From assembly GCA_947629365.1 (NCBI GenBank), contig CANRDM010000004.1:1-35395 (forward strand): a stretch of 35,395 nucleotides of DNA, given 5' to 3'. Positions 5,645 through 34,768 of this stretch are shown piece after piece; positions within the stretch are counted from its first letter, which is position 1, and each line of letters opens with the position of its first letter. This stretch comes from an uncultured Bacilli bacterium. Its GTDB lineage: Bacteria; Bacillota_I; Bacilli_A; RF39; UBA660. The translations under genes and the position numbers were made by a program. The notes below the pieces were generated by a model. It saw only the letters and a program-made list of their open reading frames with translations, was not told the origin of the DNA and did not search any database.

Positions 5645-7777
5645 ATGAGAAAAGTTACAGTAAAAATTCCCAGAATTCTTATTTTTATTGTGACTTTTCT
5701 TTTTATTGCCATCATAATTAAATTATCTTATGTTGCTCTAAGTCCTAATATTGATGGTATTAATTTAAAAGAATTTGCTAGTAATAGAAATACTAAAGAA
5801 GAAGCTATTTATGCTAAAAGAGGAGCTATATATTCAAATGATGGTAAAGTTTTAGCTTCAATGGTTAATTCTTATACTTTAATTGCTTATCTAGAACCGT
5901 CAAGAACTACTGATAAAAATGATCCCCAACACGTAGTTGATAAAGAAAAAACCGCTAAAGTTTTAAGTGAAAAGTTGGATTTATCCTATGATTACATATT
6001 AGAAAGACTAAATACTAAAGCTTATCAAGTAGAGTTTATTGGGGCTAAAAATATATCAGAGTCAAAGAAAAATGAAATTGAAGCCTTAAATTTACCTGGA
6101 ATAGATTTTCTTGTTAGTCAAAAAAGAAATTATCCAATGGGTTCATTTGCGTCATATATCTTAGGCTATGCTAAAAAAGATGAAGATGGAGAAATTATTG
6201 GTGAATTAGGAATAGAAAATGCTTATAATGATATTTTAAAAGGAAAAGATGGTAAACTAACTTATGAAACAGATGCTTATGGTTATCGTCTTCCTAGTGC
6301 TAATGTGCAAAAAGAAGAAGCCGTTGAAGGTGATGAAATATATTTAACTATTGATAGTAAGATTCAATTATTTGCCGAGAATGTAACTGATAATTTAGCT
6401 AAAACCCTTACAGATGAAGTAACTAAAAAAGTTAAAATGGATTGGATGATTTTTACCGTAATGGATGCTAAAACGGGAGCAATTGTGGCTAGTAGTACTT
6501 ATCCTGATTTTAATCCTAATGATTTAAATAGTTTAAAAAATTATGTTAATCCTTTAGTAAGTTATCCTTATGAACCAGGAAGTGTTATGAAAGTATTTAC
6601 TTGGGCATCAGCAATTGAAAATGGTGTTTATGATGGTTCTACTGAATATTTATCTGGTAAAATTAAAGTAGGGGATTATACTATCAAAGATCACGTTGGT
6701 GAACAAGGATGGGGAACAATAACTTATGATAAAGGTTTTGCCAATTCTTCCAATGTGGCAGCGACCTTAATATCAAGAGGTCTTGGCGCAAATAATTTAA
6801 AAAATTATTTATCAGAACTTGGTTTTGGCAAAAGAACTGGTATTGAATTATTTAATAAAAGTGATAAAGATGATGAACCAGCTGGAACGATTGATTTTCG
6901 AGGTGAGGTAGGTCTTGCGACTGCTTCATTTGGTCAAGGTATTATGGTAACTCCTATTCAAATTTTACAAGGACTTACGGCAATTACTAATGATGGAACA
7001 GTTATTAAACCTTATATTGTTGATAAAATAGTTAATGGTAATAATGAAGTAATCTATCAAGGGGGAAGAGAAGAGTTAAATAAAGTTTATTCTAAAGAAA
7101 CAGTTGAGCAAATGAAGAATTTAATGTATGAAGTAGTTTATAATGGTTCATCTGGTGGTATTTGGAAATCTAAAAAAACAACCATTATTGGTAAAACCGG
7201 AACAGCACAGATCGGTAGTGCTAATGGTTATCTTACTGGTCATTATGACTATATTCAAAGTTTTGCAGGTATCTTCCCTAAAGAAGATCCTCAATATATT
7301 TTCTATGTAGCTGCTGAAAAAGCGCAAACTAATGCGGGAACGATAGCTAAAGAAGTTATTAAAGCCGTTGATAATATTGTTTCCTATATGGGACTTGAAG
7401 AAAAAGAAGATGATGTATCTAATTTAACCTTTAAGTTAGATAATTATATAAGTAATGATGTAACTACTACTAAAGAAGAGTTAAAAAATAAAAAATTACA
7501 AGTTTATGTTTTAGGAAGTGGTAAATATATTACTAATCAATATCCTTTAAAAGATATGAAAGTTTTAGAGGGTAGTAAAGTATTTTTAACTACTAATTCG
7601 GATGATTATAAATTAGAAGATTTAACCAATTGGAGTTTAAATGAAGTTAAAACTTATGCTAACTTATTAGGAATAAACTTAGAAGTTGAAGGATCAGGAA
7701 AAGTAATTAGTCAAACCATTGCTAAAAATACTTTAGTAAATAAAAATACAACTTTAAAAGTTGTACTTAGTAAATAA
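5645..7777 (+). CDS. Class B penicillin-binding protein with C-terminal PASTA domains (FtsI/PBP2B/SpoVD family)
   Basis: YEPGSVMKVF (SxxK), SSN, GKTGTAQ (KTG); two C-terminal PASTA-like repeats. Confidence 0.93.
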   Translation: MRKVTVKIPRILIFIVTFLFIAIIIKLSYVALSPNIDGINLKEFASNRNTKEEAIYAKRGAIYSNDGKVLASMVNSYTLIAYLEPSRTTDKNDPQHVVDKEKTAKVLSEKLDLSYDYILERLNTKAYQVEFIGAKNISESKKNEIEALNLPGIDFLVSQKRNYPMGSFASYILGYAKKDEDGEIIGELGIENAYNDILKGKDGKLTYETDAYGYRLPSANVQKEEAVEGDEIYLTIDSKIQLFAENVTDNLAKTLTDEVTKKVKMDWMIFTVMDAKTGAIVASSTYPDFNPNDLNSLKNYVNPLVSYPYEPGSVMKVFTWASAIENGVYDGSTEYLSGKIKVGDYTIKDHVGEQGWGTITYDKGFANSSNVAATLISRGLGANNLKNYLSELGFGKRTGIELFNKSDKDDEPAGTIDFRGEVGLATASFGQGIMVTPIQILQGLTAITNDGTVIKPYIVDKIVNGNNEVIYQGGREELNKVYSKETVEQMKNLMYEVVYNGSSGGIWKSKKTTIIGKTGTAQIGSANGYLTGHYDYIQSFAGIFPKEDPQYIFYVAAEKAQTNAGTIAKEVIKAVDNIVSYMGLEEKEDDVSNLTFKLDNYISNDVTTTKEELKNKKLQVYVLGSGKYITNQYPLKDMKVLEGSKVFLTTNSDDYKLEDLTNWSLNEVKTYANLLGINLEVEGSGKVISQTIAKNTLVNKNTTLKVVLSK

Positions 7778-8338: not shown

Positions 8339-9421
8339 TTAACTATTTTTACTGATATTTAGTAATATCCCAATTGAGGCCATACTAACAAGCAAACTTG
8401 ATCCCCCATAAGATAAGAAGGGAAGAGTAACACCAGTTACGGGAATAAGGCCAACGACAACCATTAAATTCAAAACAGCTTGAATAATAAGGCCAAAAGA
8501 CAAACCAAAGGCTAAAAATTTACCAAATAAATCTTTGCTTTTTAAAGAAATCATCATCCCACGATAGAAGATAATAAAAAATAAACTACTCACAATTAAG
8601 ATACCTAAGAACCCTAACTCTTCACTAATAATAGAAAAAATAAAATCTGTTTGGGGTTCTGGTAAATAAAAATATTTTTGCCTTGATTTTAAAAAACCTT
8701 GTCCTAACAAGCCACCTGGACCAATTGCATACAAACTTTGAAGTATTTGGTAGCCGCTTCCTAAAGGGTCACTCCAAGGATTTAGAAAACTTACGATTCT
8801 TTTCATTCGGTAAGGAGCAGCGATAATGATACCTACAATCCCAAGTAAACCGAGAAGCCCCATTTTAACAAAGAAAGATATATTAACACCACTAGTAAAA
8901 ATTAACACAACTAAAGTGATGACAATAACCATTGCGGTTCCAAAATCTGGTTCCAGCATAATGATAAGGAAGAAAAAAGCAATAACTCCTAAAATAGGTA
9001 AAACACCCTTGGTAATACTTTTCATTGTTTTTTTATTATTAGTTAAATATTTGGAAACATAAATAATCAGTCCAATTTTTGCAAATTCACTTGGCTGAAT
9101 TCCTAAAGAACCAATACCAAACCAACTTCTAGAACCATTTCTAATACTACCTATACCAGGAATTAAAACAAGTATTAATAAAGTAGCGCAGATAATTAAG
9201 ATGATATTTGCGTATTTATAATAGATATGATAATCTAATTTAGTTAAGAAATACATTAAAACTAAACCGATTAAAAAGAAAATTGTTTGCATTTTAACAA
9301 ATTTATATGGATCTTGAAATTTATATTCTGCCCAAACAAAACTAGCTGAATAAATCATTACAAGTCCAAATATTGCTATTAAAAGACAAACAATTAACAA
9401 AGGTTTATCAATCTTTTTCAA
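8339..9421 (-). CDS. ftsW: FtsW/RodA/SpoVE SEDS family glycosyltransferase
   Basis: GIQPSEFAKIGLI, LPEPQTDFIFSIISEELGFLG, GVTLPFLSYGGSSLL. Confidence 0.93.
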   Translation of the reverse strand: MKKIDKPLLIVCLLIAIFGLVMIYSASFVWAEYKFQDPYKFVKMQTIFFLIGLVLMYFLTKLDYHIYYKYANIILIICATLLILVLIPGIGSIRNGSRSWFGIGSLGIQPSEFAKIGLIIYVSKYLTNNKKTMKSITKGVLPILGVIAFFFLIIMLEPDFGTAMVIVITLVVLIFTSGVNISFFVKMGLLGLLGIVGIIIAAPYRMKRIVSFLNPWSDPLGSGYQILQSLYAIGPGGLLGQGFLKSRQKYFYLPEPQTDFIFSIISEELGFLGILIVSSLFFIIFYRGMMISLKSKDLFGKFLAFGLSFGLIIQAVLNLMVVVGLIPVTGVTLPFLSYGGSSLLVSMASIGILLNISKNS

Positions 9422-10515: not shown

Positions 10516-12417
10516 TTAATTTAATAGTAAAGTTATAGTGGTATCAACGCTTTGGAAAGTATTGGCTGCTGGAGACATATAAACAACTTTATCACCATTA
10601 CCACTATATTTTACTTTAAAATCTTTTAAAGCTTTAGTTGCTTCACTCTTACTCATTCCCACAACATCTGGGACAACTAAATATTTAACATCTAAATATG
10701 AATATTCTTTAAGCATTCCGCCACTTTGTTCTTTAATTCCTAATGTTTCTATCGCGCTAATTAGAATACTTCTCGCAATTGGGGCTGAGACAGTTCCGCC
10801 ATATTGAGTTACACCTTTAGGATTATCGATAGCGACATAGACTATTACCTCAGGATCATTCGCCGGTAAAAAACCAATAAAAGAAAGGGTGTAATTACCA
10901 ACCATATATTTGCCATCTTTAACTTTTTGCGCTGTTCCAGTTTTACCGCCAACACGGTAATTTTCAATGTAAGCATTTTTACCTGTCCCATTAGCTACAA
11001 CACTTTCAAGAGCAAAGCGAGCAGTAGCAGAAGTTTCGGGGGAAATAACTCTTCTTTTTTCTTTAGGTTTGTTTTCAAAGACAATGGTTTTACTTACTTC
11101 ATCAGTGGTATTCATTACTACATAAGGAGTATATAAAATACCACCATTAATAACAGCCGATACAGCAGTTATTTGTTGAATTGGTGTGACACTTATACCT
11201 TGACCAAAAGCGGTAGTGGCAAGTTCAAGTGGTCCCATTTTTTCTTCTTTAAATAGGATACCATTTCCTTCACCATTTAAATCAATACCCGTTTTACTGC
11301 CAAAACCAAAGTTTTTGATATAACTCATTAATTTTTCTACACCTAGTTTATTACCTAAAGAAACAAATCCTGGGTTACAAGAATTTTCAACTACTTCTAA
11401 GTAAGTTTGGGCACCGTGCCCACCTCTTTTCCAACAATGAAGAGTACCTCCATCAACAGATATGGCACCACTATCTGTAAAAGTATCTTTAAATAAATCA
11501 ACTGTTCCTTCTTCAATGGAAGATGCTAAAGTAATTATTTTAAAAGTACTACCAGGTTCAAAAGTCATCCAAATAGGTAAGTTTCGATTAATAACTTCTT
11601 CTGAATAATCTTGATATTTAGATGGATTAAAAGAAGGCAGGCTTCCCATTGCTAGTATTTCCCCCGTTTTAGGTTTCATTACAATACTAAGGGCGGCATC
11701 AGCATTATATTTGTCGGTAGCGTTTTTAAGTTCATTATCAACGGCTTTAACTAGTTCAATATCAAGCGTTAATTTTAAAGTCATCCCTTTAGTCGGAGCG
11801 ACATAACTATCCGGTATTTCTAATTTATTACCTTTACCATCACTATAATATTTAAGTTCTCCATTTGTCCCTTTTAAATATTCATCATAAGTAAGTTCAA
11901 GACCTGATAATCCTTGATTATCACTTCCAACAAAACCAATAATATGGGCTAAAGTTTCTCCGTAAGGATAATATCTTTTGGAATCAACTACTAAATAAAC
12001 TCCATCATATCCTAAAGCTTCAATTTTATCAGCAACTTCGCTATCTAAATCCATTCCTTTACGAATAATTTCCATACTAGAATGTTTGGAAACATATTTA
12101 TATACATCATCATAAGAACAATTTAATACATCGGCAATATCTTGGGAAACTTTTTCTTTATCTTTAATTTGATTAGGTACTACATAAATGGTTGTTGTAA
12201 CTATACTAGTAGCTAAAATATTCCCATTCCTATCAACTATATCACCCCTTGGAGCATTAATAGTCATTTTTCTACTCCACAAATCTTCAGTAATCTTGGA
12301 TAATTTATTATAAGATATTACTTGAATATAAAATACTTTGCCAATAATTAATAAAAGAGCAATCGATATAACAATTACAACAAATCTAATTCTTATATGG
12401 ATCTCGTTAAAAAACAT
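10516..12417 (-). CDS. Second class B PBP with C-terminal PASTA domain (SpoVD/FtsI family)
   Basis: EPGSTFKI (SxxK), VENSCNP (SxN), GGKTGTAQ (KTG), VVPDVVGMSKSEATKAL PASTA; start at ATG 12417 preferred over GTG 12429. Confidence 0.93.
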   Translation of the reverse strand: MFFNEIHIRIRFVVIVISIALLLIIGKVFYIQVISYNKLSKITEDLWSRKMTINAPRGDIVDRNGNILATSIVTTTIYVVPNQIKDKEKVSQDIADVLNCSYDDVYKYVSKHSSMEIIRKGMDLDSEVADKIEALGYDGVYLVVDSKRYYPYGETLAHIIGFVGSDNQGLSGLELTYDEYLKGTNGELKYYSDGKGNKLEIPDSYVAPTKGMTLKLTLDIELVKAVDNELKNATDKYNADAALSIVMKPKTGEILAMGSLPSFNPSKYQDYSEEVINRNLPIWMTFEPGSTFKIITLASSIEEGTVDLFKDTFTDSGAISVDGGTLHCWKRGGHGAQTYLEVVENSCNPGFVSLGNKLGVEKLMSYIKNFGFGSKTGIDLNGEGNGILFKEEKMGPLELATTAFGQGISVTPIQQITAVSAVINGGILYTPYVVMNTTDEVSKTIVFENKPKEKRRVISPETSATARFALESVVANGTGKNAYIENYRVGGKTGTAQKVKDGKYMVGNYTLSFIGFLPANDPEVIVYVAIDNPKGVTQYGGTVSAPIARSILISAIETLGIKEQSGGMLKEYSYLDVKYLVVPDVVGMSKSEATKALKDFKVKYSGNGDKVVYMSPAANTFQSVDTTITLLLN

Positions 12418-12547
12418 ATTATTCACCACTAAATAATATGTTTTAAAATTATTTATTATTAACTTCGAAAATTTACATATAATTTATTATAAATAAATTG
12501 AAAAATAAAGTTAGGTGTGATATTATTTTTCTATAAGGAGGATAAAA

Positions 12548-14894: not shown

Positions 14895-15518
14895 TTAAAA
14901 TTTACGATATAAGCCAATAGCAACTCCTAAAATGGTACAATTACTTAATATAATTGGTTCCATTGTATCATTTTCTGGCTGTAATCTGATATGACCATTC
15001 TCTTTATAAAATCTTTTTAGTGTTGCTTCATTTTCCATAGTCATTGCGACAACTATATCGCCATTTTTGGCATTGCTTTGCTTTTTAACAATAACATAAT
15101 CACCATCAAAGATACCAGCATTAATCATACTTTCACCACTGACGTGAAGAGTAAATACTTCTTCTTTAGCGGGGATTAAAGATGCCGGTAAATCAAAAAA
15201 TTCATTAGGTTGTTCAATGGCAGTAATAGGGCTACCGGCTGTTATTTTACCAAGAAGAGGAACTTTAACAACATCTTCATTAGTTTTTAAATATTCATTT
15301 TCACATAATATTTCAATTGTTCTAAATTTGTTACTTGTTGTTTTAATGTAACCTAATTGTTCAAGATTTTTTAAATGAACAAAAACTGTTGCGGGACTTG
15401 ATAATCCAACACCTTTACATATTTCTCTAATTGCAGGGGGATATCCGTGTTCAGCCGTATATTTTTTGACAAAATCTAAAATATCATTTTGTCTTTTAGT
15501 TAATTCTTTAGTATTCAT
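14895..15518 (-). CDS. lexA: SOS repressor LexA
   Basis: N-terminal wHTH LTKRQNDILDFVKKYTAEHGYPPAIREI; GKITAGSP cleavage region; GESMINAGIFDGDYVIVKKQ. Confidence 0.97.
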   Translation of the reverse strand: MNTKELTKRQNDILDFVKKYTAEHGYPPAIREICKGVGLSSPATVFVHLKNLEQLGYIKTTSNKFRTIEILCENEYLKTNEDVVKVPLLGKITAGSPITAIEQPNEFFDLPASLIPAKEEVFTLHVSGESMINAGIFDGDYVIVKKQSNAKNGDIVVAMTMENEATLKRFYKENGHIRLQPENDTMEPIILSNCTILGVAIGLYRKF

Positions 15519-15849: not shown

Positions 15850-16641
15850 ATGGAAATAACTTCAATCGATAAAATAAAGAAAGCTTATTCTTTTAGTAAT
15901 GAAAATTTAACTGCCTATCAAAACATTATTGATTTTAAAGATAAAAATGTTTTATCAGTTGTGGGAAGTGGCGACCAATACTTTTCTTTTCTTCTTTTTG
16001 GGGCAAAAGAAATAGACTTGTTTGATAACAATTTGGTGGCATTGTATTATTTTTATTTAAAATATTATGCAATTATGTTATTAAACTATAAAGAATTTAT
16101 TGATAGTTTTTATTATTATAAAAATACTCAGAAAAATTATAGTAAAATTAGAGATTGCCTCCCAGATGAAATAAAAACTTTTTTTGATGAGTTTTTAAAA
16201 AATAAGGGCTTAAACTCGTTATTATATAAGCCTATTCCTTTATCAATTCATACTGATAATGTTGATAGAACAATTCCTTATTTAAAAGGTAAACGTTATT
16301 ATGAATTAAAAGAATTACTTAAAAGCACATCTTTTCCCAATGTGTTTTTATATGATTTACGCGATTTATATGCATCATTAGATAGAAATTATGATATTAT
16401 GATATTTTCTAATATATATGCTTATTTAAATATGGAAGTTAAAGAATATCGTCAATTTTTAAAAAAATATGAAAAATTTTTAAATGATGGTGGTGTTATT
16501 GAAGCTAACTATGAATGGATATCCTTTGAACGCGATTTTAAAAAGTATGGTTTTAAAAAACATTATGTTGATTCTGCCAATGACAAAATGCTGGCTTTAA
16601 ATGATAAAGATAATATCATAACTTTAAAAAAACACTTTTAA
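15850..16641 (+). CDS. SAM-dependent methyltransferase-like / DUF3419 (BtaA-like) protein
   Basis: NVLSVVGSGDQYFSFLLFGAKEIDLFDNNLVALYYFYLKYYAI resembles the DUF3419 SAM-binding region; C-terminal YDIMIFSNIYAYLNMEVKEY. Confidence 0.5.
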   Translation: MEITSIDKIKKAYSFSNENLTAYQNIIDFKDKNVLSVVGSGDQYFSFLLFGAKEIDLFDNNLVALYYFYLKYYAIMLLNYKEFIDSFYYYKNTQKNYSKIRDCLPDEIKTFFDEFLKNKGLNSLLYKPIPLSIHTDNVDRTIPYLKGKRYYELKELLKSTSFPNVFLYDLRDLYASLDRNYDIMIFSNIYAYLNMEVKEYRQFLKKYEKFLNDGGVIEANYEWISFERDFKKYGFKKHYVDSANDKMLALNDKDNIITLKKHF

Positions 16642-16796
16642 AAATTTTTAAAATGTTGCAAAATAACGCAAAAAATTAAAAAAATAAGTTAGATTGCAAC
16701 AAATTAAGCCAAAACATAATAATATATTAAGATAAAATAAATATTAATTAATTGTTTTATTTATAAATTAAGTTTATAATTATTATGAGGGATGAT

Positions 16797-17924
16797 ATGA
16801 AAAAGAAAATATTAGTGTTGTATGCAAGATATGGTTCAGGGCATAAAGCCATTGCGGAATATGTAGCCTCATACATAGCTACTCATAACGATTATGATGT
16901 AAAAGTAATTGATATAACTGATTATGGTAATAAAATTGCTAAATTTACTATTAAACTAATGGATTTTGTTTTGAATCATCATCAAGAATTTTTATTTAAT
17001 GTTGGTTATGAACTCGCTGATAATCGCATATCATCATTTGGCAATAATAAGTTAGTTAAGGGTTGCTATGATAATAAACACTTAAGAGAAGAAATCATTA
17101 ACTTTAACCCAGATATTACTATTTCTAGTCATTTTTATTGTAGTAATTTAATAACTTATTATAATAAATCTGGTTTAATTAAAAGTAAATTATTAACGAT
17201 TATTACTGATTATTGTGCTCACGAATTTTGGATTAGAAATAAAAATAGTGAAGATGGTTATATAGTTGGTAATAAAATAGTTAAAGAAGAATTAATAAAA
17301 AGAGGGGTAGATCATAAAAAAGTATATCCTTATGGTTTACCTTTAAATATTACTAAAATAAATAATTTAGATAAAGAAGAAGTTATATATAAAAGATATA
17401 ATATTAAAAATAATCAAAAAGTTTATTTATTTTTTGGTGGTTCCTCTGGTGGTAGTATGTATTACTTGAATTATTTTAAAGCAATATGTAAGTTAAATTT
17501 AAATAAAAATATCATTTTTATAAGTGGCAAGAATAATAAATTAAAAAATGCTTGTGAAAAATATGTTAAGAAAAATAATATTAAGAATATTAAAGTATTA
17601 GGATATTCAACTGATGTTTTAAATTTAATGAAAATAAGTGATTTAGTAATTAGTAAACCGGGCGGCGCTACCGTAACAGAGTGTTTAGAAATGAAAGTAC
17701 CAATGCTTTTAGTGCCAGGAATTGGTGGTCAAGAAAAATATAATGCTAGGTTTATTGCAAGAAAAAAATATGGTATTAAAGTAAGAGGAATCTTTTCTTT
17801 TAAAAGAAACTTAAAAAGATTAGAAAATAATCCTTCTTTAATCAGAAAAATGGAAGAAAGACTAAATACTTTAGATAATAATGATTCAATTGTTAAAATA
17901 AATAATTTAATTAAAAGGTTGTAG
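16797..17924 (+). CDS. MGDG synthase/UgtP-type diacylglycerol glycosyltransferase (GT28-like)
   Basis: LVLYARYGSGHKAIAEYV N-terminus; ISKPGGATVTECLEMKVPMLLVPGIGGQEKYNARF; start at ATG 16797 after GAGGGATG. Confidence 0.85.
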   Translation: MKKKILVLYARYGSGHKAIAEYVASYIATHNDYDVKVIDITDYGNKIAKFTIKLMDFVLNHHQEFLFNVGYELADNRISSFGNNKLVKGCYDNKHLREEIINFNPDITISSHFYCSNLITYYNKSGLIKSKLLTIITDYCAHEFWIRNKNSEDGYIVGNKIVKEELIKRGVDHKKVYPYGLPLNITKINNLDKEEVIYKRYNIKNNQKVYLFFGGSSGGSMYYLNYFKAICKLNLNKNIIFISGKNNKLKNACEKYVKKNNIKNIKVLGYSTDVLNLMKISDLVISKPGGATVTECLEMKVPMLLVPGIGGQEKYNARFIARKKYGIKVRGIFSFKRNLKRLENNPSLIRKMEERLNTLDNNDSIVKINNLIKRL

Positions 17925-17932
17925 GTGGTATT

Positions 17933-19894
17933 ATGAGTAAAATAGATGAAAAAATAATTAATAATATTAAAATGCTTAGTTTAGATATGGTTTATAAAAG
18001 TGGCAGTGGAGATGCTGGCGTTATTTTTTCTTGTGCTAATGTTTTTTATAGTCTATTTATGAATCATTTAATATTTGATCCTAATAATAGGGATTTTATT
18101 AATAGAGATCGTGTAATAGTAACTAATAGATTATTACCTCTTTTTTATAGTTGTCAATATTTATTCTATAAGGATATGGTAATTGATGATTTAAAAGATT
18201 ATAAATTATTTAAATCACCTCTTAGTGGTAATGGAAAAAAATCTTTACTTAATCAAGTAGGAAGTTTGATAAACAGCGATGTTGTCTCATCATCTGTGGG
18301 AGTATCTTTAGGAAGAGAATATTTAAATGGTTTACTTAATATTGAAGATAATAAAAATAAATTAGTTAATTATAAAACGTATTCTTTAATTACTTTAGAT
18401 GAATTAATGAGTGGCAGTGCTTATGAAGCAATGAGTTTTGCCAGTGTGGAAAATTTAAATAATTTAATATTTATTGTAATTAAAGATGAAGTAGGAAAAG
18501 ATAGTAGTAATAAAGAAACTTTTAATGAAGATTTAACTGATCGTTTTATTGCTCTTAATTTTAATGTCATCGAAGTAAATGATAATTTAAATTCAATTGA
18601 TGGCGCTATTAGTGATGCTAAAAATAGTAAAAAACCATCAATCATTATTGTTAAAAGTCTTTATGGTAAATCATCAAAAATTGAAAATAGCAATAGATTA
18701 TATAACAAACCATTAAGTGAAAGTGAAATGGATGAATTAAGAGGCAAATATGGTCTTGCTAATCCTTTTTATGTGGCTGATGAAGTAATTAAAGAAATAA
18801 GAAAAAATACGAGTAAAAGATTAAGTAAATATTTAATTAATTATCAAACTTCATTACAAGAAGGAATTAAAGATTTAAAAATAAAAGAAATAATTGATTT
18901 TTTAACTAGTCAAAAAGTAAATATAGAAATTAATCCTGATAATATTAAGATTAATGATAATTATGAAGAAGAATTATTAAAAAGTAATAGTAAGATTTTA
19001 AATTTAGTAGCTAGTAAAAGCCCTTTTATAATTTGTGCCAGTGATGATAATTTCTTATATACTTTAGCAAGTATTAAAAAATCAGGAATTATGAATAAAG
19101 AAAATAGAACGGGTAGAAATATTTTATTTGGAAATCGAACTTTGGGAATGGGCGGTATTTGTCTAGGTCTTGCTAGTCTTGGTTTTAAAGTGTTTGTAAG
19201 TACGCCTTTAATTAATGAAAGTTTACTTAAAAACACTATTAGAGTTGCGGCTTTAAATAATATTGATCTTAATTTTATCTTTACCCAAGATAGTTTTACT
19301 AATTCTTATTTAGATAATGAATTTCATCCCGATAATGAAATAAATGATTTAAGAAGTATTAATAATTTAGTTGTATATCGTCCTTGTGATATTAATGAAG
19401 TAGTTGGAGTATATAATGCTTTAACTAAATTAAATAAACCATCATCTATTATTATCGGTAGTGATATTGTTGGTAAGTTAAAAGGCACTAATGAAAAATA
19501 TGTTTTAGCGGGGGCTTATCGGGTTAAAAAAGAAAATGATGGTTTAATTGATGCTATTATTGTATCAAGTGGTAGTGAAGTTTTAAAAGCTTTAAAAATA
19601 ATTGAAGAATTAAAGCAATATGATTTAAATATTCGGCTTGTTTCCCTTGTTTCTACAACACTTTTTAAAATGCAAAGCGAAAAATATCAAAATATGTTAT
19701 TACCTAAAGATATTAAAACATTTACTTTAGAATTTGGTAGTCCTACTTATTTAGAAAAATACGCCACTAATAAAGAATATGCTTTGGGGGTTAGTGAATT
19801 TTTTGTTGGTGGTAATAAAGAAGAAAAATTAAATTATTATAATCTTAATGATGATGCCATTAAAGCTAAAATTTTAGAATTATTAAAAAAATAA
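17933..19894 (+). CDS. Transketolase-fold protein with degenerate active-site motifs
   Basis: Full-length colinearity with transketolase (INRDRVIVTN, NLVVYRPCDINEVVGVYNAL, IIVSSGSEVLKALKI) but ThDP/catalytic motifs replaced. Confidence 0.8.
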   Translation: MSKIDEKIINNIKMLSLDMVYKSGSGDAGVIFSCANVFYSLFMNHLIFDPNNRDFINRDRVIVTNRLLPLFYSCQYLFYKDMVIDDLKDYKLFKSPLSGNGKKSLLNQVGSLINSDVVSSSVGVSLGREYLNGLLNIEDNKNKLVNYKTYSLITLDELMSGSAYEAMSFASVENLNNLIFIVIKDEVGKDSSNKETFNEDLTDRFIALNFNVIEVNDNLNSIDGAISDAKNSKKPSIIIVKSLYGKSSKIENSNRLYNKPLSESEMDELRGKYGLANPFYVADEVIKEIRKNTSKRLSKYLINYQTSLQEGIKDLKIKEIIDFLTSQKVNIEINPDNIKINDNYEEELLKSNSKILNLVASKSPFIICASDDNFLYTLASIKKSGIMNKENRTGRNILFGNRTLGMGGICLGLASLGFKVFVSTPLINESLLKNTIRVAALNNIDLNFIFTQDSFTNSYLDNEFHPDNEINDLRSINNLVVYRPCDINEVVGVYNALTKLNKPSSIIIGSDIVGKLKGTNEKYVLAGAYRVKKENDGLIDAIIVSSGSEVLKALKIIEELKQYDLNIRLVSLVSTTLFKMQSEKYQNMLLPKDIKTFTLEFGSPTYLEKYATNKEYALGVSEFFVGGNKEEKLNYYNLNDDAIKAKILELLKK

Positions 19895-19959: not shown

Positions 19960-20376
19960 ATGCGAAGCTTTTATGTTTTTAAAATAAAAAGAGAAATAAG
20001 TATTTTAACAAGAGAAATACCTTACAATTTATATAAAACAATTGATAATTTATATTATTTAGATACTAATAGTATGGATATATCATTTCAAGTTTATAAA
20101 GATTTATTTGATACTTTTGATATTAATTATATGAATAAAAGAATATATAATTTATTTAAAAGCAATAGATATTATACTTATGAAAATAATATTCATAAAA
20201 TAGAAAATAAATATCGTCCTGAAAAAACAATTTTAAAAGTTTACAAATCACATTTATATATTAAAAGTGACGCAATAGATCCAACTCTTTTAGTTAATTA
20301 TTTAATGAGTGATAATCTTTTTGTTTGTGATTTTAAAAATAAAGATTATTTTTGGTTAAATGAATTTGTGCGCTAA
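19960..20376 (+). CDS. sirA: SirA-like (YneE) sporulation inhibitor of replication family
   Basis: C-terminal LFVCDFKNKDYFWLNEFVR resembles Bacillus SirA C-terminus; small size; directly downstream of the transketolase-like gene as in Bacillus. Confidence 0.65.
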   Translation: MRSFYVFKIKREISILTREIPYNLYKTIDNLYYLDTNSMDISFQVYKDLFDTFDINYMNKRIYNLFKSNRYYTYENNIHKIENKYRPEKTILKVYKSHLYIKSDAIDPTLLVNYLMSDNLFVCDFKNKDYFWLNEFVR

Positions 20377-21549: not shown

Positions 21550-21616
21550 GCCTTTAAAAGTTACTTATCATATAGCAATAATCTTTATTTTATGTTAGAA
21601 TTAAGAAGTGGTAAAG

Positions 21617-22249
21617 ATGAAATTTAAATTAAATGATTATATAATTGAATATGATATAGTTAGAAAAGATAATAAAAATCTTTATTTTCGTTTTGATGAA
21701 AATTGTCATCTTATTATTACGGCTCCGAAATTTATTACTGATTTAGAAGTAAAAAATTTAATAACAAAAAATTCTAAAGCTATTTTAAAAATGTATGAAG
21801 ATGCAATAATGCGCAGTGATCGAGATGGTTTATTTAAATATTTAGGTAAAAAATATAAAGTTGTTTTTGATAACCGTGTTAAAGACATTTGTTTTGAAGA
21901 TGATACTATAACTTGCTTTAGTGAAGAAGAATTAGATAAGTTTTATCATAGCGAATGTGAAAGAGTATTTAATGAAGAAATTGCTATATGCAGAAAATGT
22001 TTTAATAATTTACCAGAATTTAAACTAAGGATTAGAAAGATGAAAACAAGATGGGGAGTATGTAATACTAAAGATAAGATAATTACTTTGAATAGTGATT
22101 TATTAAAAAAAGATATTGCTTTAATTGATTATGTAGTGGTTCACGAAATGGCTCACTTCTATGAGGGAAATCATAGTAAGAATTTTTGGAAAATAGTTGA
22201 AGCAGTCCTACCTGATTATAAAGAAAGACGTAAAAAATTAAAATACTAA
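21617..22249 (+). CDS. YgjP/WLM-like (DUF45) zinc metallopeptidase
   Basis: KTRWGVCNTKDKIITLNSDL...DYVVVHEMAHFYEGNHSKNFWKIVEAVLPDYKERRKKLK. Confidence 0.9.
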   Translation: MKFKLNDYIIEYDIVRKDNKNLYFRFDENCHLIITAPKFITDLEVKNLITKNSKAILKMYEDAIMRSDRDGLFKYLGKKYKVVFDNRVKDICFEDDTITCFSEEELDKFYHSECERVFNEEIAICRKCFNNLPEFKLRIRKMKTRWGVCNTKDKIITLNSDLLKKDIALIDYVVVHEMAHFYEGNHSKNFWKIVEAVLPDYKERRKKLKY

Positions 22250-32921: not shown

Positions 32922-33779
32922 ATGTCTAATAAAATATTAGAAGTTCAAAACATAAAAGTTAATGTTACAAAGCTAAACGATAATGATTATATTTGTATTT
33001 CTGATTTTGGTAAATATAAAGAAGGGAATTCAAAATCTGATGATATAATACGCAATTGGTTAAGAAATCGGATAACTTTAGAGTTTTTAGGCACTTGGGA
33101 ATCAATTTATAATCCAGATTTTAATTCCGTCGAATTCGACGGATTTAGAAAAAATGCTGGTCTTCATACCTTTACACTTAGTGTAACTGAATGGTGTGAA
33201 AAAACTAATGCTATTGGTATTTATTCTAAACGAGGAAAATATGGTGGAACTTATGCCCATAAAGATATTGCCTTTGAATTTGCATCTGCTATAAGTCCAG
33301 TATTTAAATTATATTTAATAAAAGAATTTGAAAGGTTAAAAGAAATAGAAAATCAAAATAGAGAATGGGATGTAAAAAGAATACTTACAAAGAATAATTA
33401 TTTAATTCATACGGATGCTATAAAAAGATATATATTACCAGATAATGATTATTTTAAAAATAGAGAATGGCTAAAATATGCTGAAGAAGCTGATATTTTA
33501 AATGTTGTATTATTTCATACGACAGCAAAAACATGGAGAGAACTTAATCCTAATTTAGCAAAAAACTCTAATATTAGAGACTATGCTTCCATTAATGAAT
33601 TAACAGTATTATCAAATCTTGAGTCACATAATGCAGAATTAATTAAAGAAGGGAAAAGCAAAGAAGAGAGATTTGATATATTAAGTGTCATTGCGAAATA
33701 TCAATTAGGTATACTTAATAATGCTGAAGAAATTAAATTATTAAAAGAAACTAAAGAGAGTAGTGATAAAAATGAATGA
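32922..33779 (+). CDS. KilA-N domain protein
   Basis: YICISDFGKYK...IIRNWLRNRITLEFLGTWE...EWCEKTNAIGIYSKRGKYGGTYAHKDIAFEFASAISPVFKLYLIKEFERLK. Confidence 0.93.
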   Translation: MSNKILEVQNIKVNVTKLNDNDYICISDFGKYKEGNSKSDDIIRNWLRNRITLEFLGTWESIYNPDFNSVEFDGFRKNAGLHTFTLSVTEWCEKTNAIGIYSKRGKYGGTYAHKDIAFEFASAISPVFKLYLIKEFERLKEIENQNREWDVKRILTKNNYLIHTDAIKRYILPDNDYFKNREWLKYAEEADILNVVLFHTTAKTWRELNPNLAKNSNIRDYASINELTVLSNLESHNAELIKEGKSKEERFDILSVIAKYQLGILNNAEEIKLLKETKESSDKNE

Positions 33780-34006: not shown

Positions 34007-34768
34007 TTGAATAATAAATTAGAAACAATTTCAAATCTTTTTGATGGTAAAGAAATAAGAAGTATTTGGGATAGTGAAAAAGAAGAATATTACTTTAGTG
34101 TTGTTGATGTTATAGGTGCATTAACTGATAGTAAAATACCAAAAAGATATTGGACTGATTTAAAAAGAAAATTAGAAAGTGAAGGAAGTCAGTTGTACGA
34201 AAATATCGTACAACTAAAAATGAAATCTTTAAAAGACGGAAAATTTTATAGTACAGATATGTTAGAAACAAAAAATGTATTCAGGTTAATTGAGTCAATT
34301 CCTAGTCCCAAAGCGGAGCCTTTTAAAATGTGGTTGGCAAATTTAGGAAGTGAAAGAATTGATGAGGTCTTTGATCCTGAAATTGCAGTTAATAGAGCAG
34401 TAGAATATTATCGAAAAAAAGGATATAATGATGAATGGATAAAGGCAAGGTTAAATGGAATTGTAGATCGATTTAAACTTACCGATGTATGGAAAGAAGG
34501 GGGAATTACTAAACCATTAGAATATGCTCTTTTAACTAATGAAATATATAAAGGTTGGTCAAATATGACTGCTTCTGAATATAAAAAATTAAAAGGTCTT
34601 CGAAAAGAATCGTTGAGAGATAATATGACTGACATTGAAGTGGCTCTAACAAATATTGGTGAAATAGCAGCAAGGGATATTGCAAGAGAAGAATATCCAA
34701 AAGGATTAAAAGAAAATCTAAATGTAGCAAATGAAACAAAGAAAATAGAAGAAAAAGTGAGTGATTAA
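34007..34768 (+). CDS. BRO/Ant-like phage antirepressor family protein (TTG start)
   Basis: IRSIWDSEKEEYYFSVVDVIGALTDSKIPKRYWTDLKRKL...SIPSPKAEPFKMWLANLG...LRDNMTDIEVALTNIGEIAAR. Confidence 0.9.
   Translation: MNNKLETISNLFDGKEIRSIWDSEKEEYYFSVVDVIGALTDSKIPKRYWTDLKRKLESEGSQLYENIVQLKMKSLKDGKFYSTDMLETKNVFRLIESIPSPKAEPFKMWLANLGSERIDEVFDPEIAVNRAVEYYRKKGYNDEWIKARLNGIVDRFKLTDVWKEGGITKPLEYALLTNEIYKGWSNMTASEYKKLKGLRKESLRDNMTDIEVALTNIGEIAARDIAREEYPKGLKENLNVANETKKIEEKVSD

Follow-up and report, generated by a model that had tools for sequence, protein, structure and literature searches.

A probable pseudo-transketolase retained as the only transketolase found in a genus of uncultured RF39 Bacilli

Introduction

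Transketolase (TK) is a textbook housekeeping enzyme, and to our knowledge no pseudoenzyme has been described for the bacterial TK, nor is one known as a repeated event within one bacterial family. Activity has been debated for human transketolase-like 1 (TKTL1): its delta-38 TKT model was reported to be inactive (PMC3485151), while a contrary argument holds the proteins to be bona fide TKs (PMC6334435). Our search of the openly licensed literature returned neither a bacterial pseudo-TK nor any paper on the TK of RF39-like Bacilli.

Here we consider a TK homologue encoded in a 35,395-nucleotide stretch of DNA (hereafter the window) from an uncultured member of the Bacilli (RF39, UBA660; assembly GCA_947629365.1, contig CANRDM010000004.1). 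A preliminary description of this DNA, made from its letters alone, proposed a maintained TK with a nonenzymatic or re-purposed role. The absence of a second TK, purifying dN/dS values, and 36 intact frames all support such a role, and the re-purposing is supported as a genus-wide and repeated phenomenon. The reading that we favor, with a probability of roughly 0.6, is that the vertically inherited tkt of this lineage became a pseudoenzyme, its catalysis having been made dispensable by phosphoketolase, and that the protein is kept for a noncatalytic role of its linker and C-terminal domain.

A full-length transketolase homologue

The pseudo-TK gene (17933..19894, forward strand; open reading frame call, profile search, and alignment) has an ATG start and 653 codons with no stop inside, and a ribosome-binding-like AGGTGG lies shortly 5' of the start. 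The intact frame and the TK-like length and colinear blocks first described for it thus hold: the TK profile TIGR00232 matches residues 7-651 (E 3e-97). The score of 326.5 bits falls below the 682-bit equivalog cut-off of that profile. Profile searches also recovered Transketolase_N (PF00456, E 9e-45) and the TK C-terminal domain (E 3e-18), with the Transket_pyr score slightly below its cut-off. Solved TKs match as well (8r3r at E 2e-65), and the colinear end-to-end alignment with TKs (140 sequences) establishes homology. An AlphaFold model from a 9-sequence alignment has a pLDDT of 50 and is informative for fold class only; every Foldseek match to this low-confidence model was a TK.

A divergent lexA lies upstream (14895..15518, reverse strand) and a SirA-like gene follows directly 3' (19960..20376, forward strand), with a YgjP-like metallopeptidase gene, conserved in the genus, further 3' (21608..22249, forward strand), all three placed by profile search and synteny. 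The lexA-...-TK-sirA arrangement is common to the pseudo-TK and the canonical TKs of the family, and the pseudo-TK gene is the vertically inherited tkt of its lineage; B. subtilis has a similar gene order. The sirA-like gene is the conserved immediate 3' neighbor of canonical and degraded family TKs and the commonest neighbor of family TKs, dead or alive. By adjacency, its product is the first candidate partner of the pseudo-TK.

Other parts of the window deserve brief mention. A DUF3419-like open reading frame (15850-16641) between lexA and the glycosyltransferase gene discussed below was found at that place by tblastn only in the window and in three other loci (L035, L043, and L044). Two PASTA-domain penicillin-binding proteins and an FtsW/RodA family protein are encoded in a cluster (5645-7777, 8339-9421, and 10516-12429), so peptidoglycan synthesis is probably retained. 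Near the window end, KilA-N and Bro-N domain proteins are encoded (32922-33779 and 34007-34768), a kind typical of phage or mobile-element regulators.

The adjacent glycosyltransferase

A link to the glycolipid glycosyltransferase encoded just upstream formed part of the preliminary description. This gene (16785..17924, forward strand; profile search) resembles MGDG/diglucosyl-diacylglycerol synthases. Conceivably, the pseudo-TK is its dedicated partner in a membrane-lipid complex: the pseudo-TK gene starts 8 nt past the end of the glycosyltransferase frame and has a ribosome-binding-like site of its own, no terminator separates the two genes, and the pair occurs in 34 of the 35 genus loci with upstream DNA. 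The wider distribution argues otherwise, because the glycosyltransferase is a neighbor in the genus that is not specific to degraded TKs. One genus member (G206) has a pseudo-TK with the glycosyltransferase missing at the locus; the same glycosyltransferase also lies 5' of three canonical TKs (L003, L022, and L077) and is absent beside the degraded TKs L007-L011. Nor do the two proteins change together, since the most diverged genus pseudo-TKs share 32-36% identity with the window protein, where their glycosyltransferases share 67-68%. The gene pairing is tight in the genus, but the functional link is only weak, and the glycosyltransferase is probably not an obligate partner; we regard a dedicated lipid complex as quite unlikely.

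Loss of the active site

Retention of TK chemistry was scored over 21 catalytic, cofactor, and substrate positions in E. coli numbering. The window protein retains 1 of the 21. In the 140-sequence alignment all the motif replacements listed at the outset proved correct, and with colinearity from end to end the motifs are not preserved elsewhere in the protein. Along the forward strand, SGHPG is replaced by SGDAG (18005..18019; H26 lost), SAGHGS by TNRLLP (18122..18139; H66 lost), GPLGQG by GSLINSD, the ThDP/Mg motif GDGDLMEG by TLDELMSG (18392..18415), xxSNDISLDG by IKDEVGKDSS, and REFxMG by RTLGMG (19136..19153), in which the catalytic Glu has become Thr. At the substrate phosphate/ThDP site, THDSIxxGEDGPTHxP is replaced by TQDSFTNSYLDNEFHP (19283..19330), a loop that is missing altogether in short genus forms.

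These losses extend through the genus. With TLDELMSG in the GDG region and N185 changed to D, the window protein has no GDG...N motif; G156 is retained in 0 of 36 genus sequences and N185 in 4, and the catalytic Glu of REFxMG in none. Nine substrate-site residues (H26, H66, H100, H261, R358, H461, D469, H473, and R520) are likewise all gone from the window protein, each persisting in at most 4 of the 36. Among columns that are invariant in canonical family TKs, loss in the genus is concentrated on catalytic positions (14 of 16, compared with 21 of 65 others; Fisher p 1e-4). In the four shortest members of the genus (552-554 aa) the core is kept, but residues 19-27, 95-113, 188-194, 247-264, and 455-464, among others, have been deleted. 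In a working TK these loops contain SGHPG, GHPE/GPLGQG, SLDG, H261, and GEDGPTH. From the alignment, it looks as if a disused active site had been cut out and the scaffold left in place.

Single copy throughout the genus

An orthologue was found in 36 of the 38 genomes of the window's genus, always as one copy with no internal stop. These 36 sequences retain 0-4 of the 21 sites, compared with 17-21 in about 95 canonical family TKs and 5-14 in a small group discussed below. Eight orthologues in public genomes (49-65% identity) are all from metagenome-assembled genomes (MAGs) of one sample series labeled Lapin. Assembly error, sequencing artifact, or a single oddity is ruled out by the 36 genus orthologues, with the same losses in the eight public MAG records.

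A search for a second canonical tkt, suggested when the gene was first described, found no other PF00456 or Transket_pyr (PF02779) domain in the window's genome, a MAG of 1.14 Mb that is 88% complete; a canonical or split TK elsewhere in that genome was rejected on these grounds. More generally, the pseudo-TK is the only TK found in the genus genomes that carry it, all absences from MAGs being soft. The two TK-free genus genomes (G088 and G219) were considered as evidence that the gene is dispensable and were dropped. Their tkt region may simply be unassembled, because lexA is missing from both, as is the neighboring glycosyltransferase (no orthologue in either; a weak partial match in G088 only).

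Purifying selection and shifted constraint

Selection was gauged by Nei-Gojobori dN/dS, a gene-wide average that is silent on which function is selected. Across orthologues, a comparison also proposed at the start, the values are strongly purifying: 0.03-0.14 in twelve close genus pairs, for which the neighboring glycosyltransferase gives nearly identical values, and 0.11-0.16 in canonical family TK pairs. Between the window protein and its nearest relative the ratio is 0.29 at a dS of 0.78 (glycosyltransferase, 0.21). Given the low close-pair values, the pseudo-TK is under strong purifying selection, yet on longer time scales it evolves more quickly than its neighbors: its identities within the genus are mostly 46-69%, and those of SirA and the glycosyltransferase are 62-81%.

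That faster change invites the explanation of slow decay, in which a dispensable gene has been caught before its loss and is not selectively maintained; consistent with this, 50 of 193 family genomes (MAGs, in which absences are soft) have no detectable TK, and most of these have phosphoketolase. Neither frame disruption nor relaxed selection, the marks of a pseudogene, is seen, however. Although the genome is AT-rich and the proteins differ at up to about 65% of their amino acids, frames are intact in 36 of 36 genus orthologues, with none of the frequent disruption that would have spoken against maintenance; dN/dS is low, and conservation has been redistributed instead of uniformly relaxed. 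Of the alternatives, slow decay is the one that we find hardest to credit. Catalytic residues that are lost under continued purifying selection are the hallmark of a pseudoenzyme, and both are found here.

The redistribution is evident when domains are compared at matched overall identity (45-60%). Mean identities for the PP, linker, Pyr, and C-terminal domains are 0.48, 0.43, 0.55, and 0.57 in the genus and 0.59, 0.27, 0.57, and 0.41 in canonical TKs; constraint has moved away from the ThDP (PP) domain to the linker and the C-terminal domain (residues 516-653; 19478..19894, forward strand; delimited by alignment). Residues that are near-invariant and genus specific occur in the linker (K295, L297, K316, I320, F323, N337, and I338), in the Pyr domain (K362, F418, K419, and Y494), and in the C-terminal domain (N520, K522, Y523, A526, L589, and F597), where N520-K522-Y523-A526-G527 form a block. 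We know of no settled explanation for the role of the TK C-terminal domain.

A further possibility is that the cavity has been rebuilt for a new ThDP-independent reaction or for metabolite sensing, making the protein a neofunctionalized enzyme or ligand sensor as opposed to a scaffold. Replacements are indeed fairly uniform among the 36 genus sequences: H26 to D in 22, E160 to S in 24, N185 to D in 23, E411 to T in 20, and H66 to R in 17. But no active-site replacement is invariant in the genus, whereas many linker and C-terminal residues are; the strongest constraint lies in those two regions, and the short forms delete active-site loops outright. A rebuilt cavity thus seems unlikely.

Phosphoketolase and pentose phosphate metabolism

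The window's genome encodes a phosphoketolase (contig 71) whose ThDP motif reads intact (IGDGEAETG ... LHLNG), and it retains Rpe and RpiB; with these, pentose phosphates should be manageable without TK. Phosphoketolase is present in 17 of 18 genus genomes tested and, family-wide, in 45 of 50 TK-less genomes, 11 of 14 with degraded TKs, and 55 of 129 others. The association has Fisher p values of 4e-9 (TK absent versus present, in a first tally) and 0.012 (degraded versus other); over independent lineage pairs it runs in the same direction and is not significant, in a test of low power (7 pairs; median sign-test p 0.375). Phosphoketolase occurs in at least one member of every one of the seven degraded lineages described below. 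Phosphoketolase is likely the reason that TK catalysis could be lost.

Transaldolase (PF00923) is absent from all 25 genomes tested, including the window's genome and carriers of canonical TK. Likewise, thiamine pyrophosphokinase (PF04263) was not found in 42 genomes tested, canonical-TK carriers among them, despite their ThDP enzymes; the cofactor presumably comes from import or from an unrecognized enzyme. Loss of ThDP supply was rejected as the cause of TK degradation: the lack of PF04263 is uninformative, being shared by genomes with canonical TKs, and the window's genome keeps an apparently intact phosphoketolase.

Phosphoketolase has the general ThDP-enzyme domain architecture that is common to TK, and it co-occurs with degraded TKs. 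The pseudo-TK might accordingly be imagined as a dead subunit of a hetero-oligomer, a regulatory or structural partner of a sugar-phosphate enzyme such as phosphoketolase or Rpe. Against this, phosphoketolase works without a pseudo-TK, since it is present in nearly all TK-less genomes, and the genes are unlinked in the window's genome (contig 71 versus contig 4); we give such a complex little credence.

Repeated degradation in the family

Partly degraded TKs that retain 5-14 of the 21 sites occur in other genera of the family (L006, L007, L008, L009, L010, L011, L028, L030, L095, L189, L195, and L203). A mixture-model tree computed with active-site columns removed has degraded TKs at seven separate positions: the genus together with its sister L203, L006 with L011, L007-L010, L030 with L095, and L028, L195, and L189 each alone. 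Parsimony on this tree requires seven changes, several degraded TKs are nested beside canonical sisters with starred support, and a single origin is rejected (AU p 3e-5; the group tested was drawn up once the motif scores were known). Degradation has arisen in at least six further lineages outside the genus. These TKs too are single copy with open frames (L203 is cut by a contig end), and the two pairs measured have dN/dS values of 0.125 and 0.158. The TK-less family genomes indicate that a second TK role would not be universal in the family.

Three additional sequences stand apart. A very diverged TK-like protein of about 580 aa (G100 contig 67; L162 4800-6557, also labeled L148) is encoded away from the lexA-sirA locus, just 5' of a ribosomal-protein-like operon; this copy was left out of the mixture-model tree. 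TK copies in two genomes (L193 in G101 and L199 in G186) contain one in-frame TAA each. L199 is split into two frames, and in L193 two active-site residues are substituted as well. Both may be recent pseudogenes or the result of assembly errors. Viral contigs searched for further sequences yielded no pseudo-TK and one TK fragment only.

A proposed noncatalytic role

We propose that phosphoketolase would move pentose phosphates onward while RpiB would supply ribose-5-phosphate, such that TK chemistry may no longer be needed and the active site and its loops could decay. Lost need alone predicts that the gene disappears, as it has from many family members. Selection has instead preserved this protein while constraint shifted to the linker and C-terminal domain, which suggests that a folded, probably still dimeric protein is maintained for a role in binding or regulation that would rest mainly on its linker/C-domain surface. 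Partly dead TKs persist as intact single copies in at least six related lineages; for that reason the second role is probably older than the loss of catalysis and would be a moonlighting role of TK in the family.

A broader proposition is more tentative, and we hold it with somewhat less than even confidence: that an unrecognized noncatalytic role of TK across this family of genome-reduced gut Bacilli has repeatedly outlived catalysis. After phosphoketolase takeover, at least seven lineages would have shed catalysis to varying degrees while keeping the protein, with one genus losing the whole active site and constraint refocusing on the linker and C-terminal domain.

Comparison with known systems

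A clade that has the protein but has discarded its chemistry separates any second function of TK from catalysis, and the graded series found here (canonical, partly degraded, fully dead, and loop-deleted) makes it possible to ask which surfaces remain selected. There is also a practical consequence: automatic annotation may assign to these gut bacteria a step of the pentose phosphate pathway that they are unable to carry out.

With bacterial TKs (TIGR00232/PRK05899; B. anthracis 3m49 and S. pneumoniae 8r3r), the window protein has in common a full-length colinear sequence and the three-domain architecture, and its gene shares the tkt-sirA/lexA locus of canonical family TKs. It differs in the absence of the ThDP/Mg motif, the catalytic Glu, and the substrate-site His, Arg, and Asp residues, in its distance from the equivalog cut-off (326 versus 682 bits), and in the move of constraint to the linker and C-terminal domain. 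Phosphoketolase (XFP, PF09364), a ThDP enzyme that acts on xylulose-5-phosphate and that these genomes also encode in apparently intact form, is a separate gene and family. With pseudoenzymes and moonlighting metabolic enzymes generally, the pseudo-TK would share an enzyme scaffold kept under selection without catalysis. TKTL1, like the window protein, is a TK homologue with disputed or absent activity; it is, however, an extra paralogue beside an active TKT and is distinguished mainly by a 38-residue deletion, whereas here the genome's only TK appears from its sequence to be dead, with essentially all of its motifs replaced.
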